A program made the position numbers and the translations under genes. Under the pieces are notes generated by a model. It ran no database searches. It had not been told where the DNA came from and worked only from the letters and a program-made list of their open reading frames with translations. From Actinomycetes bacterium (GTDB lineage Bacteria > Actinomycetota > Acidimicrobiia > Acidimicrobiales > SZUA-35), in NCBI GenBank assembly GCA_024227975.1, contig JAAETV010000611.1, forward strand, positions 1 through 15,090: a DNA stretch of 15,090 nt, given 5' to 3'. Each line of letters begins with the position of its first letter. The first letter of the stretch is position 1. Positions 6,596 to 13,168 of this stretch are shown here, piece by piece.

Positions 6596-7399
6596 TCATC
6601 GGCGGAGGGCGCCTCGGCGGTCGGCCCGGGTGCGAATGATCTCGAGCTCCGCGGTCGTTGGCTCTGTCGTTGTCGGTATCTGATCGGGGACGATCAGATC
6701 GAAGCCGGTGTTTGCTACCACCTCGTCGACGGTCACTCCTCGATGTAGTGATTTCAGCCGCAGGTGCTTGGTGTCGTCGGTGAAGTCCATGACGCACAAG
6801 GGGGTGACACAGTACTTGGGGCCACCGCCCGGGAGACCAAGCCGGGTTCTGGCTTCAGGGTCGCCATCACCCCAGCCAAAGGCGCTGATGTAGTCGCAGC
6901 GCTCGACGAAGGTGCGGGCGGTGTGGGAGTTGAGCACGATGTAGTAGCGGCCCACATGGGTACTCAATGTCGGGGTCCCGACCGAGCCAGGGCCCCGGAA
7001 TCTGAGTCGGGTGTGGTCCTCGCCCACCCCGATCAGGTTGGTGTTGCCGTGAGGATCGACTTGGACGCCACCGATGAAGAAGACCCGACGGTCCCAATCC
7101 TTGACCCGGTCGAAGCGATGGCCGGTGTCGCTATAGGACTCGGCCCAGCGGACGACTCGGTGATCCCAGCTGAATTCTGGGGTGGGCAGCACGTCGAGAT
7201 GGGCCGCGTTCATGCGGGCCCCGATGAAGATCAGCTCCATGTTGGGGCCATGGGTGAAGTGAGCCAGGCGGACGGCGACCTCGGGTACCGGCATGGCCGC
7301 CCCGATCTGGAGGATTTCACCGTCATTGAGCTCGTTGGCCAAGAAGGCGGCCATGGTTTCGAGCCTGGTTGTTGGAGTTGTGGTCATGTCGGTGCTCAT
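6596..7399 (-). CDS. CoA-transferase family I, beta subunit (IpdB/GctB-like)
   Basis: This is the last gene of the six-gene operon (267 aa from ATG 7399; GTG 7402 is one codon upstream). It has the features of the B subunit of glutaconate/3-oxoacid CoA-transferases: GEILQIGAAMPVPEVAVRLA near the N-terminus, FFIGGVQVDPHGNTNL (about 107-122), the GPGSVGTP glycine loop, and LRLKSLHRGVTVDEV near the end. Classical transferases carry the catalytic glutamate just after the first beta strand (an IFE-x-G type site). Here the sequence is LIFIGARMNA, with no glutamate. As I recall it, the same loss is seen in IpdB, whose complex is a ring-cleaving hydrolase in steroid degradation. A hydrolase or lyase role on a CoA thioester is therefore as likely as CoA transfer. 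It forms a complex with the upstream gene, 24-27 bp away. Confidence 0.85.
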   Translation of the reverse strand: MSTDMTTTPTTRLETMAAFLANELNDGEILQIGAAMPVPEVAVRLAHFTHGPNMELIFIGARMNAAHLDVLPTPEFSWDHRVVRWAESYSDTGHRFDRVKDWDRRVFFIGGVQVDPHGNTNLIGVGEDHTRLRFRGPGSVGTPTLSTHVGRYYIVLNSHTARTFVERCDYISAFGWGDGDPEARTRLGLPGGGPKYCVTPLCVMDFTDDTKHLRLKSLHRGVTVDEVVANTGFDLIVPDQIPTTTEPTTAELEIIRTRADRRGALRR

Positions 7400-7426
7400 C
7401 ACAGATGCGTCTCGTGTTGCCTGGAA

Positions 7427-8341
7427 TCAGTACTCGTAGAGGGACAGGAGGCGTTTGACGCCGACCCGTTCCAGGTAGTCGGCATGGGTCTCGGGCTCGA
7501 TGCAGTATCGGCTGAGGAAGGCATCGAGAAGGCTCCGATCGCCGTCTTGGGCGGCGGCAGTGGCCGCATCGAGGTATGTCTTGGTGAAGGCCTTGTCCTG
7601 GACGTAGTAGCCCCGGCTGTAGAAGGGGTGGGCACCATAAGGAGCTCGGACCACGGCATCGATGCTGGCGATGGTGGTGGCCCAGGGGTCAGCCCGGATT
7701 GCCTCGTTGGAAACGATCTTCTCGACCTGGACGATGGTCCGGTCAGCGGCTCGCTGGAGAAACAGATCGAGCCAACCCGGCCCACCGATGTGCTGCACAT
7801 TGCCGTATGAGTCACTCACGGCGGCATGGAGGACGGCAACGTCGAGCTCGATGGCCGGCACGGCGATGAGGGTCTGACCCTTGATGGGGTCCTCCATCAG
7901 ACGAAGATCAGGGTTCAGCTCGGGGAGCGAAGTTCCGACCCCGCCCCGCCATGGGAGGAAGGGCAACCCCTGAGCCGCGGCCCGCAGGCCAGCAGTGAGG
8001 ATCCCCTCCTCACATTCCCAGACCTCGATCTCGCCCTGTTCGGCCGCCCGCCGAAACGACGGGGCAACCGCGCCCCCGAATCCACCGCCGACGTAGTAGG
8101 CCATCGTCTTGGCCACACAACCGGCGGCTACCAGCAGATCGAGGGCGAGCCCACTGCCGACCACGGTCAGCCCCGTCACTCCACGGCGGATGATCTGGCG
8201 GATCACGGCCATGGGAGCTGGGTCTCCGATGGCGATGGTCATCTCGTCGTCGATCCAGGAGGCGGCCTCGCCCTCATCCAGGATGCGCTGACGGCGCTGG
8301 TCGAGAGTGTGGTCTTGGCCGGCCTGATCGGGTTGGTTCAT
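7427..8341 (-). CDS. CoA-transferase family I, alpha subunit (IpdA/GctA-like)
   Basis: The 304-aa protein matches the A subunit of the glutaconate CoA-transferase/IpdA group. It has MTIAIGDPAPMAVIRQIIRR (34-53), GLTVVGSGLALDLLVAAGCV (57-76), EEGILTAGLRAAAQGLPFLP (111-130), GGVGTSLPELN, and a VSDSYGNVQHIG block. The glutamate of the EEGI motif (111/112) corresponds in position to the acidic residue proposed as catalytic base in mycobacterial IpdA (Glu105, from memory). The C-terminus ends with LERVGVKRLLSLYEY. The ATG at 8341 overlaps the stop of the LLM oxidoreductase by 4 bp (ATGA), so the two are translationally coupled. It works as a heteromer with the product of the next gene. The substrate is unknown. 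Confidence 0.87.
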   Translation of the reverse strand: MNQPDQAGQDHTLDQRRQRILDEGEAASWIDDEMTIAIGDPAPMAVIRQIIRRGVTGLTVVGSGLALDLLVAAGCVAKTMAYYVGGGFGGAVAPSFRRAAEQGEIEVWECEEGILTAGLRAAAQGLPFLPWRGGVGTSLPELNPDLRLMEDPIKGQTLIAVPAIELDVAVLHAAVSDSYGNVQHIGGPGWLDLFLQRAADRTIVQVEKIVSNEAIRADPWATTIASIDAVVRAPYGAHPFYSRGYYVQDKAFTKTYLDAATAAAQDGDRSLLDAFLSRYCIEPETHADYLERVGVKRLLSLYEY

Positions 8342-9357
8342 GGGGAACTGGCCGCCCGTATGGAGTCAACGATTTCAGCAATGGTCTCAGGCGATGGGGT
8401 CGGACCGTAGAACATCATGGTCGAGCGGTTGGCGAAGGTGTTGCGCTCGGCCATCTTGCGTCCCACCTCCGCCGGGCTCCCAGAGACTGTCAACAGACCG
8501 AGCAGCTCATCATCGATCTGCTCGGTCATCTCCCGCCATTGACCCTGTTTGCTCATCATGTTCAGCTCCGGTTGGAGCCCCTCGTAGCCATGATGATCGA
8601 GCACACCGGCGTAGGCCGGTGTCGATCCGTAGAAGGCCAGCTGAGCCTTGGCCTTCGAGCGGGCGTCGTCGAGCTCCTCGTCGTTGGTGCCGACGGCGAC
8701 GATGGTGATGCAGGCGATGTCGATTTCGGAACTGTCCCGCCCGGCGGCTACAGCTCCCTCCTCCAGAAGAGGAAGGGTGTCGGATCGGAGGAAGTCCACG
8801 GAGTGAAACGGGTGGACGAAGAACCCGTCTGCCACTTCGCCGATGACCCGCACCATGCGGGGCCCGACCCCGGCGACATAGATGGGAGGAGGGGGTACCT
8901 CATTGGGGCCGGGGCTGAAGGCCGGAGTCATCAGGGTGTGGGTGTAGAACTCACCCCGGAAGTCGAGCCGGTCCCCAGTTGACCAGGAGTGCCAGATGGC
9001 CCGTAGGGCGTGCACATACTCCCCCATCCTTCTCGCTGGATTCGACCAGGGCATCCCGTAGCGCTTCTCGATATGGGGCTTGATCTGGGTTCCCAGCCCG
9101 AGGATGAACCGGCCCCCTGACAGCCGCTGGAGATCCCAAGCCGTGACCGCGGCCGTCATCGGGGTCCTGGCGTAGGCAACGGCTATGGCGGTGCCCAACT
9201 GGATCCGCTCGGTGGTCTGGGAGGCCAGCGTCAGCGGTACAAAGGGGTCGTGGTTGGCCTCGAAGCTCCAGGCCCCAGCGAGGCCCATCCGCTCGAATTC
9301 AGCCGCCTCGGCTCCACTCCTGGTCACCGACATCGACAATGCGCCGTCGATCTTCAT
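8338..9357 (-). CDS. LLM-class (luciferase-like) flavin/F420-dependent oxidoreductase
   Basis: This TIM-barrel oxidoreductase has about 339 aa from ATG 9357. It starts MKIDGALSMSV and contains GLAGAWSFEANHDPFVPLTL, then RIQLGTAIAVAYARTPM, LSGGRFILGLGTQIKPHIE, FRGEFY, PPIYVAGVGPRMVRVIGEVADG, and a C-terminal GSPAEVGRKMAER. This arrangement is typical of the actinobacterial subgroup assigned to coenzyme F420; cofactor choice is by analogy. I chose ATG 9357 because GAGGAG lies 4 bases upstream (complement of 9362-9367) and family members begin there. A TTG at 9393, overlapping the previous stop, would add 12 residues with no similarity. The enzyme probably performs one hydride transfer or oxygenation in the operon's pathway. 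Confidence 0.88.
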   Translation of the reverse strand: MKIDGALSMSVTRSGAEAAEFERMGLAGAWSFEANHDPFVPLTLASQTTERIQLGTAIAVAYARTPMTAAVTAWDLQRLSGGRFILGLGTQIKPHIEKRYGMPWSNPARRMGEYVHALRAIWHSWSTGDRLDFRGEFYTHTLMTPAFSPGPNEVPPPPIYVAGVGPRMVRVIGEVADGFFVHPFHSVDFLRSDTLPLLEEGAVAAGRDSSEIDIACITIVAVGTNDEELDDARSKAKAQLAFYGSTPAYAGVLDHHGYEGLQPELNMMSKQGQWREMTEQIDDELLGLLTVSGSPAEVGRKMAERNTFANRSTMMFYGPTPSPETIAEIVDSIRAASSP

Positions 9358-9389
9358 CTGACTCCTCTTCCAACTCCGACTGGGACGGG

Positions 9390-10187
9390 TCAAGCAGATA
9401 CCCGCCGGGCCAAGACTTCTTCAACTCCTCCCCTGGCGTCCATCTCATAGAGAAGTCCGGACACCGGGGGTCGAGCGTAGTACCAGTGCACGCCCCGTCT
9501 ACTGGCCGAACCGAGCCGAGCCAAGACCGTGGGGCCCAGCACCATGGTGAGGTTCTCGGCCGTATAGGCATCGACGATGTCGGTCTCGGACCAACTGGCA
9601 CCCAGCCCATCGAGGCGGCGCTCGATTTCGTCGAGCACGGTGACTGTTCGTTCGATTCCTGACTCCTCCCACCCGGTGGTGCCACCGACGATGGCCTCCG
9701 GTCGCATGTCCGATTGGTCGTATACATCACCGGCACCAGAAGTGATGAACGACGGCCTAGCCCCATCGGTGGCCGCGACCGGGACGGTGTAGCCGAAGGC
9801 GAGCAGATGGGTCTCTTCGACAGGGTCGACGGCGGGGGCGACATTGGTCCTGGCCACGGGATTCACCCCGTCATCGAGCAAGATATCCCGAGCGGCCAGG
9901 GCCGATCGGTAGTCGTCATTGAACGAGCCGAAGCCGGCGAAGGAGTGGGGGGTCGGGCAACGCAGCTCGATCGAGCACAGGGCCCGGGCCGGGCGGTCAG
10001 CCTCGCCAATGACACGGTCGATCAAAGCGAAACCGTCTACCCACGGCACCGATGGATTCAGGGTGACGCGCCGGATCCTGAACCCAGGTTTGGCCACCAC
10101 CCCGGCTGAATAAGGGGCGATAGCGGGGATGTAGGCGTAGCCCCCATCGGGATGATCGACTTGGTTCATGGGCTCAGTATTGCTCAC
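9390..10187 (-). CDS. CnbZ/RidA-like protein (2-aminomuconate deaminase family)
   Basis: This 265-aa protein carries motifs I associate with CnbZ, the 2-amino-5-chloromuconate deaminase, and with its uncharacterised RidA-related homologues. They are NPVARTNVAP (109-118), a YTVPVAA strand, FITSGAGDV (147-155), ERRLDGLGASWSETD (189-203), and the C-terminal HWYYARPPVSGLLYEMDARG (234-253). Such enzymes remove an amino group from an enamine/imine-type intermediate by hydrolysis. Whether that reaction applies here is inference. GTG 10187 overlaps the stop of the upstream carboxyltransferase gene (GTGA), which supports this start; ATG 10169 is an alternative. Its place inside an acyl-CoA operon suggests an amino or imino intermediate, or removal of a reactive by-product. 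Confidence 0.7.
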   Translation of the reverse strand: MSNTEPMNQVDHPDGGYAYIPAIAPYSAGVVAKPGFRIRRVTLNPSVPWVDGFALIDRVIGEADRPARALCSIELRCPTPHSFAGFGSFNDDYRSALAARDILLDDGVNPVARTNVAPAVDPVEETHLLAFGYTVPVAATDGARPSFITSGAGDVYDQSDMRPEAIVGGTTGWEESGIERTVTVLDEIERRLDGLGASWSETDIVDAYTAENLTMVLGPTVLARLGSASRRGVHWYYARPPVSGLLYEMDARGGVEEVLARRVSA

Positions 10188-11629
10188 CAGGTATCGATTG
10201 GGTGCTTCTTGGTTGGGCGATGTAGGCGCCGATCGAGGCGGTTCAGCGTGCGGGTGATCATGGGCCTGGTAGCGGCCGGCGACACCACATCGTCATAGGC
10301 GCTCTGATTGCGGACCGCAGCGAAGCCATCTGGTCGGCCCAATTCGGTCGTCGGCCAGGCCAACCACAGCACCGGCACACTCCGGCCGCTGCTGAAACCA
10401 CCCATCACCGCTGGCCCCAGCCCACCTCCTCGCCGGATCTGGACGGCAAACAGCGGCACGGTCCGGTGGTGGTGAGCCATGACCGGACGGGTATGCCACC
10501 GGCTCATGCCAGGCTGGGTGGTCCTGCCCCCCCCAGCGGTGTCGTCAGTGCCAGCGGCCCGGGTGACGACACACCCTGGGGTGTCGATGAGAGACAGGAT
10601 CGGTAGCTCGTAGGCATCGCACAGCTCGACCATGCGCCCGACCTTGGTAGCACTGTTCTCGTCGATGGCTCCATCATCGACCATGGGCTGGTTGGCGATC
10701 ACACCAACCGACCGGCCGTTCATACGGGCGAACCCGGTGATCACGGAACGGGCGAAGCGGGGCCGGAGCTGAGCCAACGACCCGTCGTCGACCAGTGATT
10801 CGATCACCGCCACCGCGTCGTAGGGGCCATCGTCGGGTACCAGGTCCCCGATGGAGCCGGCTGAGGGGTGGGGGCGGCCTTCGGGCCTGTCGTCGTAGTA
10901 CGACAGGTATCGTTTGGCCGCCGCGATGGCCTCGTGTTCATTGCTGACGAGGAGGTCGATTCCCCCTGTCTGTTCGTGCATCTCGACCCCGGCCAACTCG
11001 TTGGCCGATAGTGAGATTCCGAGGGCAGCTTCGACCATGGGTGGCCCTCCCATCCCGATCGACGATCCGCCGGTTGCGATCACGATGTCGGAGAACCCAG
11101 CCAGGCTGGCGTGGCCGGCGAAGGATGGGCCGGACACGATGGCGATAGTTGGGGCCCAACCCGAGAGCTCGGCGATCCCGTCAAAGAGCTGGTACCGACC
11201 GAAGGGGCCGTTGAGCTCCAGATCGCCCCTACCGGCGCGAGGATGGCGGGCCCGGCTCCCTCCCCCGTCGACGAAGAACACCACCGGCCAGCGATGCTCT
11301 ATGGCCAAGGCGAAGAGCCGTTCCAGCCGCCCTGCCCCGTAGCCCCCTCCTCTATCGGTGAAGTCGGTGGAGGAGGTGATCACCGTCCTCCCTCCAACCG
11401 ATCCGATGAGGTCGACTCCGCCGGCCTCGGGGACCCAAGAACCATCGGAGGCCAGGGCCGCGATCGAGCCGAACTCCACCTCACTGTCGGGGTCGAGCAG
11501 GGCCCCAATCCGCTCCCGGGCCGTAAGTCGGCCGCTGGCATGGACCCGTTCAGCCGCTTCGCCCCTGGCGTCGTCGAGTTGTGACGCTCGAGCCTCCTCC
11601 AGTTCCTCGATGCGTTCGGACCTCACCAA
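10184..11629 (-). CDS. Acyl-CoA carboxylase carboxyltransferase-type subunit, C-terminal domain shortened
   Basis: The 481-aa protein has both halves of the carboxyltransferase (crotonase-like) fold. The N-terminal half shows GRLTARERIGALLDP, VDGGGSR (120-126, replacing the usual SGGAR), SGPSFAGHA (166-174) and the MGGPPMVEAALG loop (193-204). The C-terminal half shows GVIANQPMVDDGAID, FVELCDAY-like MVELCDAYELPILSLIDTPG, HHRTVPLFAVQIRRGGGLG and a final KKHPIDTW. Compared with its upstream paralogue it lacks about 37 residues after TTELG (430), removing most of the helical segment before YDDVVSP. It also has extra residues around 358-375. The start is TTG 11629, directly after the paralogue's stop, or GTG 11626 with GAGG upstream. 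Biotin carboxylase and biotin carrier genes are not in the window, so carboxylase activity is inferred from family only. Confidence 0.85.
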   Translation of the reverse strand: MVRSERIEELEEARASQLDDARGEAAERVHASGRLTARERIGALLDPDSEVEFGSIAALASDGSWVPEAGGVDLIGSVGGRTVITSSTDFTDRGGGYGAGRLERLFALAIEHRWPVVFFVDGGGSRARHPRAGRGDLELNGPFGRYQLFDGIAELSGWAPTIAIVSGPSFAGHASLAGFSDIVIATGGSSIGMGGPPMVEAALGISLSANELAGVEMHEQTGGIDLLVSNEHEAIAAAKRYLSYYDDRPEGRPHPSAGSIGDLVPDDGPYDAVAVIESLVDDGSLAQLRPRFARSVITGFARMNGRSVGVIANQPMVDDGAIDENSATKVGRMVELCDAYELPILSLIDTPGCVVTRAAGTDDTAGGGRTTQPGMSRWHTRPVMAHHHRTVPLFAVQIRRGGGLGPAVMGGFSSGRSVPVLWLAWPTTELGRPDGFAAVRNQSAYDDVVSPAATRPMITRTLNRLDRRLHRPTKKHPIDTW

Positions 11630-13168
11630 CTACCTCGGATCGATCGGGTGTTTCTTGGCCCCGGGGAAGACTCGGGGGATGGTGGACAACATGGTGATGA
11701 CCCGGTCCCGGGTCTCCGACGGGAGAACGACGTCGTCGAACGAGAACGTCCGTCCCGCCGACACTCCCGAGGCCGGGTCCCGCATCTCCTCGGCGTAGGC
11801 ATCGCGGATGGCCCTGGCCTCCTCTGGTGATTCGGCCCGCCGGATCTCAGCCCGCTTGACCAGGAAGGCGGCCCCTTCCAGCGACATCCCACCCGACTCG
11901 ACCGATGGCCATGCCAGTTTCATATCGGGAGCTATACGAGAAGTTCCCCATCCGGACATGGCCCAAGGCCCTAGCCCGTAGGCCTTGCGGAGCTGGACCG
12001 AACACAGAGGAACGGTCCGATGGTGCAGGGCGGCCAGGGGGCGTGCATGGTGGCGGGCGATCCCTTCGCGCTCGGCGTTGGGTCCGACCATATAGCCCGG
12101 ATTGTCAACCAGTGATACGAGCGGTAGCTCATAGGCATCGCACAGCTCGACGAACCGTGCTGCCTTGTCGGCGGCGGCTGAGTCGATGGCACCGGCGACC
12201 GGTGAGATCGGTTGATTGGCAAAGATTCCGACGGGGTACCCGCCCAGGGTGACCAGGGAGGTGATCATCGACGGAGCCCAGTGGGCGCCAAGCTCGAGAA
12301 CACTGTCGGCATCGGCCAGGGCATCGATGATGTGGCGGACGTCGTAGGGGTGACGTCGATCATCGGGGATGATCGAGGCGATGCTGTCGTGGGTGGGCGA
12401 TGGCTGCGCCGATCCGAACCCGTCGCCCCAGTAGGCCAGGTAGTCGGCAACAGTGGCGATGGCTTCGACCTCGTCGGCCACCACGACATCGACGCTCCCA
12501 TCGGCGGCCAGTTCCTCGACCGGCTGGGTGAAGACGGTGTTGGTTGAATCCGAGCCGGAGCGAGCAGTTGAGCCAACGCTGGAGGCCGAGCCTATCTCCG
12601 AGCCGGTGGTGGCGATGACACAGTCGCACAACAGGGCGATACCCGCGTTGCCGTCGAGGGCTCGCCCACTGATCACGGCAATTGAAGGGGCCCAACCCGA
12701 CAACTCGGCCAAACCCTCATAGACATCCCACATCCCTCGGGAGTAGACGACGATCGGGGGCAGAACAGGGGCCAGGTTCGGCCGGGCCCCGTCGCCGTCA
12801 ACGAAGCACACGAAGGGCCAGCGGTGCCGGTTCGCCAGGTACAGGAGCCGGACCAGCTTGCGCATATTGCGGTCAGTCTGGGTGCCCTGGTGAATGGTGG
12901 TGTCGTAGGAGGCGACGACCACGGGCTGATGGTTCACCTGTCCCATGCCGGCTACCAACCCATCGGCCAGAGCGTCATCGTCAGGTGCTGGAGAGCTTCC
13001 GGCCAGCTGGCCGTACTCGACGAAGGTATCTGCGTCGACGAGCTCGGCTATCCGCTGGCGGGCCGTCAAGCGGCCGGTGGCGTTGACGGCCGCTACCTCG
13101 GTTGGGCGGGCATCGTCGAGAGTCCTGGCTCGGGCCTCCACGATCTGGGTCAGCTGCTGGTCCTGCAT
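11630..13168 (-). CDS. Acyl-CoA carboxylase carboxyltransferase-type subunit, paralogue, N-terminal motif loop altered
   Basis: This is the first gene of the operon (512 aa, ATG 13168). It is a tandem paralogue of the next gene, sharing GRLTARQRI, HRWPFVCFVDGDGAR, LAELSGWAPSIAVISG, FVELCDAYELPLVSLVDNPGYMVG, ARPLAALHHRTVPL, RKAYGLGPWAMSG and a final KKHPIDPR. The C-terminal half is complete, including GGMSLEGAAFLVKRAEI (426-442) and FSFDDVVLPSETRDR. In the N-terminal half the loop that reads MGGPPMVEAALG in the partner is IGSASSVGSTARSGSDS (192-208), so this active-site region has diverged. The enzyme family transfers carboxyl groups between biotin and an acyl-CoA, and some members act in decarboxylases. 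The gene lies 20 bp from the divergent gene at 13189. Confidence 0.87.
   Translation of the reverse strand: MQDQQLTQIVEARARTLDDARPTEVAAVNATGRLTARQRIAELVDADTFVEYGQLAGSSPAPDDDALADGLVAGMGQVNHQPVVVASYDTTIHQGTQTDRNMRKLVRLLYLANRHRWPFVCFVDGDGARPNLAPVLPPIVVYSRGMWDVYEGLAELSGWAPSIAVISGRALDGNAGIALLCDCVIATTGSEIGSASSVGSTARSGSDSTNTVFTQPVEELAADGSVDVVVADEVEAIATVADYLAYWGDGFGSAQPSPTHDSIASIIPDDRRHPYDVRHIIDALADADSVLELGAHWAPSMITSLVTLGGYPVGIFANQPISPVAGAIDSAAADKAARFVELCDAYELPLVSLVDNPGYMVGPNAEREGIARHHARPLAALHHRTVPLCSVQLRKAYGLGPWAMSGWGTSRIAPDMKLAWPSVESGGMSLEGAAFLVKRAEIRRAESPEEARAIRDAYAEEMRDPASGVSAGRTFSFDDVVLPSETRDRVITMLSTIPRVFPGAKKHPIDPR

Follow-up and report, generated by a model that had tools for sequence, protein, structure and literature searches.

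The window analysed here, a 15,090-nt stretch of contig JAAETV010000611.1 from an Actinomycetes bacterium (assembly GCA_024227975.1), carries on its minus strand two adjoining genes for two-domain carboxyltransferases (CTs). The product of CT512 (11,630-13,168), a protein of 512 aa, has a degenerate active-site segment in the N-domain and an intact C-domain; that of CT481 (10,184-11,629), a protein of 481 aa, has an intact N-domain and a C-domain short of 37 residues. Both open reading frames (ORFs) were confirmed at these coordinates. There is no gap between them, and the TTG start codon of CT481 lies immediately 3' of the CT512 stop. The initial annotation regarded the two proteins as two-domain CTs and duplicates of each other, and this proved correct: PF01039 matched both domains in both copies (E-value 1.5e-72 and 245.2 bits for CT512, 5.1e-62 and 210.5 bits for CT481, cut-off 22.3 bits), and the two types form sister clades (see below). 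The match of CT481 stops at profile position 405 of 493.

About 5.8 billion proteins were searched and the best 120 homologs of each copy were listed. The aligned sets comprised 57 proteins of the CT481 type (56 of the 120 and the window protein) and 60 of the CT512 type (59 of the 120 and the window protein). The initial annotation had described the 512-aa copy as missing a loop in the N-domain with the C-domain complete, and the 481-aa copy as keeping that loop and missing about 37 residues of the C-domain; both descriptions apply to every aligned member. The distance from the WP motif of the C-domain to FDD is 12 residues in 57/57 CT481-type proteins, 49 in 60/60 CT512-type proteins and 49-51 in 11/11 homologs encoded by a single gene (solo CTs, see below), so the loss in the CT481 type amounts to 37 residues relative to CT512. 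The N-domain segment starting from IGMGG has 30 residues in all 57 CT481-type proteins and in all 11 solo CTs. The same segment in the CT512 type is ragged, with 16-43 residues (16-23 in 53 of the 60), and the pattern GGPx[MLV][VI] is missing at this site in 60/60. Bare GGP is still present in some CT512-type proteins, such as P0217; two regular-expression matches of CT512-type proteins to the N-domain motif were rejected, as both are located elsewhere in the protein. Since the losses are present throughout the family, sequencing error is ruled out.

Among the best 120 homologs of each copy, GGPPMVE was found in 118 CT481-type proteins and in no CT512-type protein, GMxLEGA in none and 119, and RKAYG in none and 120, respectively. 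Of the two CT481-type proteins with no match to GGPPMVE, P0097 reads GGPPMVA and P0071 misses a looser pattern as well; the CT512-type protein that has no GMxLEGA is P0221.

The AlphaFold2 (AF2) models of the window proteins, with mean predicted local distance difference test scores (pLDDT) of 82.8 for CT512 and 88.7 for CT481, show what these differences may mean for the fold (all coordinates are for the minus strand). In CT481, the intact N-domain IGMGGPPMVEAALG segment, residues 191-220 (10,970-11,059), has a helix at 196-203 and a pLDDT of 76-81; at the scar of the missing C-domain helix and lid, residues 431-442 (10,304-10,339), the model passes from the strand 421-424 to the helix 451-462 with no helix in between. 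In CT512, the site of the lost GGPPMVE-type turn and helix, residues 192-223 (12,500-12,595), has strands at 191-196 and 211-216, no helix between them, and a pLDDT below 50 at residues 198-207. The 49-residue block with the intact GGMSLEGA helix and lid segment of its C-domain, residues 426-474 (11,747-11,893), has a helix at 427-437 and a pLDDT of 64-69. The C-domain motif RKAYGLG of CT512, residues 394-400 (11,969-11,989), was found in 60/60 CT512-type and 0/57 CT481-type proteins. The alignment places it against RRGGGLG in CT481, residues 399-405 (10,415-10,435), a decayed counterpart: the Lys and Tyr that are conserved in the outgroups are kept in 2% and 11% of the 57 CT481-type proteins, respectively.

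Writing N(481) and C(481) for the two domains of CT481, and likewise for CT512, we observed in the AF2 models a post-strand helix in N(481) and C(512), with a moderate pLDDT of 64-81, that is missing at the corresponding place of C(481) and N(512). A profile alignment of the N- and C-domains (HHalign) showed that they are homologous (E-value 1.2e-13) and ended before the lost segments. Judged by the order of strand, turn and helix in models of moderate local confidence, the two losses appear to have hit corresponding elements of two homologous domains. Complete N and C half-sites are present together in neither chain, as CT512 has no N segment and CT481 no C segment.

The location of the lost segments could be compared with a published CT. 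According to a report on MccB (PMC5187497), an ordinary CT beta subunit and a homo-hexamer, its active site is made by residues 137-237 of one monomer against residues 392-492 of another. In the same report, residues 452-477 of one monomer form a helix-loop-helix lid that was visible only in the crystal form containing four substrate molecules, and the ribose is touched by Pro453, the thioester by Gly420. This description bears out the premise of the initial annotation that CT sites form between the N-domain of one subunit and the C-domain of another, and both lost segments would fall into the published active-site or lid region, under a mapping of residues from MccB to PccB that we infer. In the numbering of S. 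coelicolor PccB (A420 after GG; MGAQGAV from 445), the CT481 deletion would correspond to the MGxxGA helix and the lid, and the CT512 loss to TGPDVIK near 206-212.

The two types mirror each other in the pattern of conservation. The fraction of columns with at least 90% identity was 0.53 in the N-domain and 0.26 in the C-domain of CT481, and 0.29 and 0.56, respectively, in CT512, compared to 0.37 and 0.41 in a control family of ordinary CTs (60 of 120 listed proteins, chosen by length and every second row). The N-domain identity exceeded the C-domain identity in 1,596/1,596 pairs of CT481-type proteins, in 0/1,770 pairs of CT512-type proteins and in 158/1,770 control pairs. Ancestral active-site positions were taken as those conserved in the 11 solo CTs, five LCC-type and four single 514-aa-type relatives. 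The 25 such positions of the N-site were retained at a rate of 0.87 in CT481 and 0.62 in CT512, while for the 23 positions of the C-site the rates were 0.53 and 0.87.

When 84,980 species genomes were scanned with two patterns, 58 loci were obtained, of which 50 are family members; these reside in records titled Acidimicrobiia or Actinomycetota, Gammaproteobacteria, and Chloroflexi. The remaining hits (L051-L058) do not belong to the family: the hit at L051 is a single-chain carboxylase, and of the seven others, five were read and proved to be ordinary CTs with both segments. Three of the 50 loci (L008, L036 and L046) start right at a contig edge, which leaves no space for a partner gene. In 47/47 loci with room, locus L047 counted, a CT512-type gene or its contig-cut part adjoins the CT481-type gene, so that the co-occurrence of the two defects in tandem, a check suggested in the initial annotation, was found throughout. 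The CT512-type gene is upstream on the same strand in 44 of these loci, downstream in L039 and L043, and convergent in L022.

Searches within larger groups, with scoring limited to the top 6-8 candidates of each genome, found each type in two of the 247 genomes of a class (the same two) and in one of the 194 genomes of an order (again the same one). These three genomes were already known for the pair, and the searches thus show its rarity rather than new cases of pairing. In one family of 39 genomes, several of which are genomes of the 50 loci, CT481 was found in 13 and CT512 in 14 at an E-value of 1e-171 or better. The mismatches come from G461 and G486, where the partner is cut by the contig end, and from G462, where the contig stops at the match and the case is undecidable. 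Of seven weaker matches in this family (E-value near 1e-138), the three that were fetched are single CTs of ~511 aa with both segments intact. Lone homologs of either type, which the initial annotation named as an observation that would speak against pairing, were not found in the 47 loci with room or, except at contig ends, in these genome searches, whose positives were largely genomes with a known pair. In plasmids, 746 records matched, none with 60% identity or more (32-35% in ten of them); four plasmid regions were used as outgroups.

A solo homolog, one gene matching both profiles, was found in 11 of the 197 genomes of the class to which G011 belongs (the genome of L043, titled Dehalococcoidia). 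The solo proteins bear GMGGPPLVE as well as GGMGLEGA with the lid, that is, both segments are intact. With 7-8 candidates scored per genome, the pair was absent from the 11 solo genomes, and the solo gene from the pair genomes G011, G593 and G662. Phylogenetically, each type makes one clade with 100% bootstrap, and CT481 and CT512 are sisters in three trees (100/99, 100/99 and 97/92). In the 48-row tree, whose root was drawn at the midpoint, the solo CTs are sister to CT481 and CT512 together (97/92), all three are joined at 100/100, and LCC-type, 514-aa-type and control CTs fall outside. Among CT481-type proteins the Chloroflexi members branch off first, and among those of the CT512 type they sit in an unresolved base; this pattern is in keeping with one duplication. 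The position of an intact solo homolog immediately outside the pair points to a duplication and a subsequent reciprocal loss.

Complementary interface defects, co-occurrence and mirrored conservation favor obligate pairing, and we consider it likely that CT512 and CT481 make an obligate heteromer. On the most economical reading of the alignments, N(481)/C(512) is probably the working site. The obligate pairing and the composite site proposed in the initial annotation are thus supported; the changed reaction proposed along with them is not supported (see below). The ancestor would have been one CT gene with both half-sites intact, of the kind persisting as the solo gene, that was duplicated; the CT512 copy would have lost the turn and helix of the N-domain, and the CT481 copy the helix and lid of the C-domain. 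Most simply, three CT481:CT512 dimers would assemble in the usual six-subunit ring, each dimer combining a canonical N(481)/C(512) site with a decayed N(512)/C(481) site. A heteromer of this kind predicts half-sites activity. The working site would most likely serve organic-acid catabolism by the ordinary, biotin-dependent carboxylation of an acyl-CoA, with the biotin carboxylase (BC) and the biotin carrier (BCCP) supplied from elsewhere in the genome. Naturally, losses in opposite domains would by themselves arise by chance in one case out of two; the weight comes from the mirrored conservation, the strict pairing and the intact solo sister.

Several observations count against an obligate heteromer with one working site. 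In the CT512 model, active-site loops have low confidence, with pLDDT below 50 at residues 357-367 and mostly so at 398-407. In L047 (2,535-9,979), a chromosome-level record from Pseudomonadales, a transposon-like insert of ~6 kb, which has 75-nt inverted repeats (92%) as well as a tRNA match, interrupts the CT512 gene at its degenerate N-domain segment, and CT481 is open; in L045, the N-terminal part of CT512 sits in a different frame. CT481 resembles the solo protein to nearly the same degree in its N- and C-domains (0.48 vs 0.46, with N above C in 457/627 comparisons), therefore the decay of its C-domain is mainly divergence within the family plus the deletion. A BC search covering 785 kb of loci found none next to the pair in the window, and among the 50 loci one at L007 only, where it is a single-chain carboxylase that has its own CT. 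Finally, N(512) and C(481) retain some site residues, for example G-x-G-x-R in the N-domains of both copies, and the N(512)/C(481) site may therefore not be dead.

One could suppose that this second site was repurposed: having lost turn, helix and lid on its two sides, it would form an open pocket that accommodates a bulky CoA ester, a regulator or a docking partner. Both losses would map onto one composite site, G-x-G-x-R occurs in N(512) of 60/60 aligned proteins, and some N(512) blocks, such as GLAELSGWAP, are conserved. However, the halves that change fast are N(512) and C(481), the length of the N(512) segment ranges from 16 to 43 residues, and C(481) has no RKAYGLG in 57/57 proteins, which makes a new role of this site unlikely.

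The genes around the pair bear on the chemistry. On the minus strand, CT512 and CT481 are followed by a gene for a CnbZ-like protein (9,390-10,187), which overlaps CT481 by four bases, an LLM-class F420-dependent oxidoreductase (8,338-9,393; TIGR03617, 444.4 bits vs a cut-off of 278.15), and two CoA-transferase subunits matched by PF01144, one alpha-like (7,427-8,341; nearest solved sequences 6con, 6co6 and 1poi) and one beta-like (6,596-7,402; nearest solved sequence 1poi_B). As three junctions in this run overlap by four bases, the genes from CT512 to the CoA-transferase are probably one operon. The CnbZ-like protein exceeded the cut-off of the NCBIfam model of CnbZ, 2-amino-5-chloromuconate deaminase (NF049982, 234.3 bits vs 220), and had no match above 60 bits among the ORFs of the 50 related loci. 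Neighbors in the scanned loci include amidohydrolase, enoyl-CoA hydratase, family III CoA-transferase and acyl-CoA ligase, and also isocitrate dehydrogenase and peptide transporters. A conserved pathway operon around the pair was considered and rejected, as the flanks vary between groups. The neighborhood is loosely compatible with acyl-CoA catabolism and names no substrate.

A biotin-independent decarboxylase or transcarboxylase, the kind of changed reaction that the initial annotation had in mind, would fit a window with no BC gene adjoining the pair and with CoA-transferase genes further along the operon. On the other hand, C(512) still shares RKAYGLG, GGMSLEGA and the lid with biotin-dependent CTs. 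Scores of the pair were far below the cut-offs of TIGR01117 (methylmalonyl-CoA decarboxylase alpha, mmdA; 224.2 and 195 bits vs 998.8) and of the models of the biotin-independent malonate decarboxylase beta subunit (24-33 bits vs 228-278). Moreover, other CTs in these genomes likewise outnumber the BCs. We therefore regard this alternative as improbable.

In the window, no BC or BCCP partner is encoded beside the pair; a biotin-carrier match lies near the pair at one locus, L039, and the flanks of the solo genes (L090-L100, 5-12 kb) have no BC. Matches to the BC family PF02785, which occurs in other biotin enzymes too, were present in 14/14 genomes of relatives (G001-G014, the genomes of L006, L015, L016, L023, L024, L032, L033, L035, L038, L041, L043, L045, L047 and L026). 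Each of the 14 has 3-12 BC matches vs 11-21 CT matches, some of the CT matches being fragments; G011, for example, has 19 CT matches vs 3. With such an excess, many CTs must share partners or act otherwise. In Streptomyces, according to PMC5187497, ACC and PCC use one common alpha subunit. Given this sharing and the BC matches in all 14 hosts, it is plausible by analogy that the pair shares a BC from elsewhere in the genome.

It is also quite improbable that one copy is active in some other way with a non-catalytic or regulatory partner, each possibly forming homo-oligomers. Ordinary CT beta subunits such as MccB are indeed homo-hexamers, as stated in the report cited above, but any homo-oligomer of CT481 or CT512 would hold only sites with a half missing, opposite domains are strongly conserved, and the genes are paired in all 47 loci with room. 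Finally, decaying duplicates with no joint function, or assembly artefacts, suggested by the interrupted CT512 copy of L047, are hardly credible given an identical 37-residue loss in 57/57 proteins, loci in three record-titled bacterial groups, and identity of at least 90% in more than half of the columns of the kept halves.

The pair could serve as a comparative case of a symmetric homo-oligomeric enzyme becoming an obligate hetero-oligomer, with the intact single-gene sister surviving and the same losses maintained in loci of three groups of bacteria. In addition, the pair identifies a CT subfamily that is annotated at source as ordinary carboxyltransferase or even as biotin carboxylase.

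Other arrangements of tandem CTs were observed along the way. At L063 (1,930-6,019) and L064 (2,021-4,961), an intact CT precedes CT-like ORFs that are strongly degenerate, two at the former locus (360 aa and a run-on of 644 aa) and one at the latter (464 aa); these sets are possibly independent asymmetric heteromers. Loci L065 (1,890-4,998) and L066 (1,758-4,911) have tandem CT pairs with both active-site segments in both copies, and L067 (1,871-3,751, minus strand) has a 626-aa ORF that, read by eye, resembles an AccD-AccA fusion with a CxxC zinc-type start.

In the literature, where most subscription papers were outside the search, we found no paper on a CT pair with such reciprocal truncations. 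Among known systems, the nearest solved relative of both copies by sequence is the CT domain of the single-chain long-chain acyl-CoA carboxylases 5fif and 4rcn, and the best match by fold is 5fif; 4rcn has GMGGPxMIE as well as RKxYGLG and GGMGLE motifs. However, these enzymes join BC, BCCP and CT in one chain with both half-sites intact, whereas the pair is made by two genes for chains of 481 and 512 aa that hold CT only, with no BC or BCCP and with the half-sites divided. The solo CTs (L090-L100) share 47-50% identity with CT512 and 41-44% with CT481, as well as the KKHP-type C-terminal end; having both segments in one gene, they are a sister of the pair and not a member. The beta-6 CTs MccB and PccB (5inf, 1xny) have the same fold, domain order and N/C interface site, but are homohexamers with equivalent sites.

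Two CT paralogs per complex, a precedent for a hetero-oligomeric CT, are found in the mycobacterial long-chain acyl-CoA carboxylase of the AccD4/AccD5 type (9t97, 9yx1-9yx5). The six entries have 12 chains of D4a and 24 chains of D5a, a 2:4 ratio; CT512 matches both near full length, and no reciprocal loss was seen in those matches. In the E. coli-type AccA/AccD CT, an N-type and a C-type partner form the active site jointly, with one domain per partner. AccA/AccD (2f9y, 8uxz) had weak sequence matches to both copies, and differs from the pair in its single-domain partners: CT481 and CT512 are both two-domain chains with only one domain intact in each. It is a tentative idea, to which we give a low probability, that the AccD/AccA-type division of labor between an acyl-CoA side and a biotin side was re-evolved here through reciprocal decay of tandem duplicates, with the leftover, doubly deleted site taking on a new role, either in regulation or as an open pocket that receives a bulky CoA ester.

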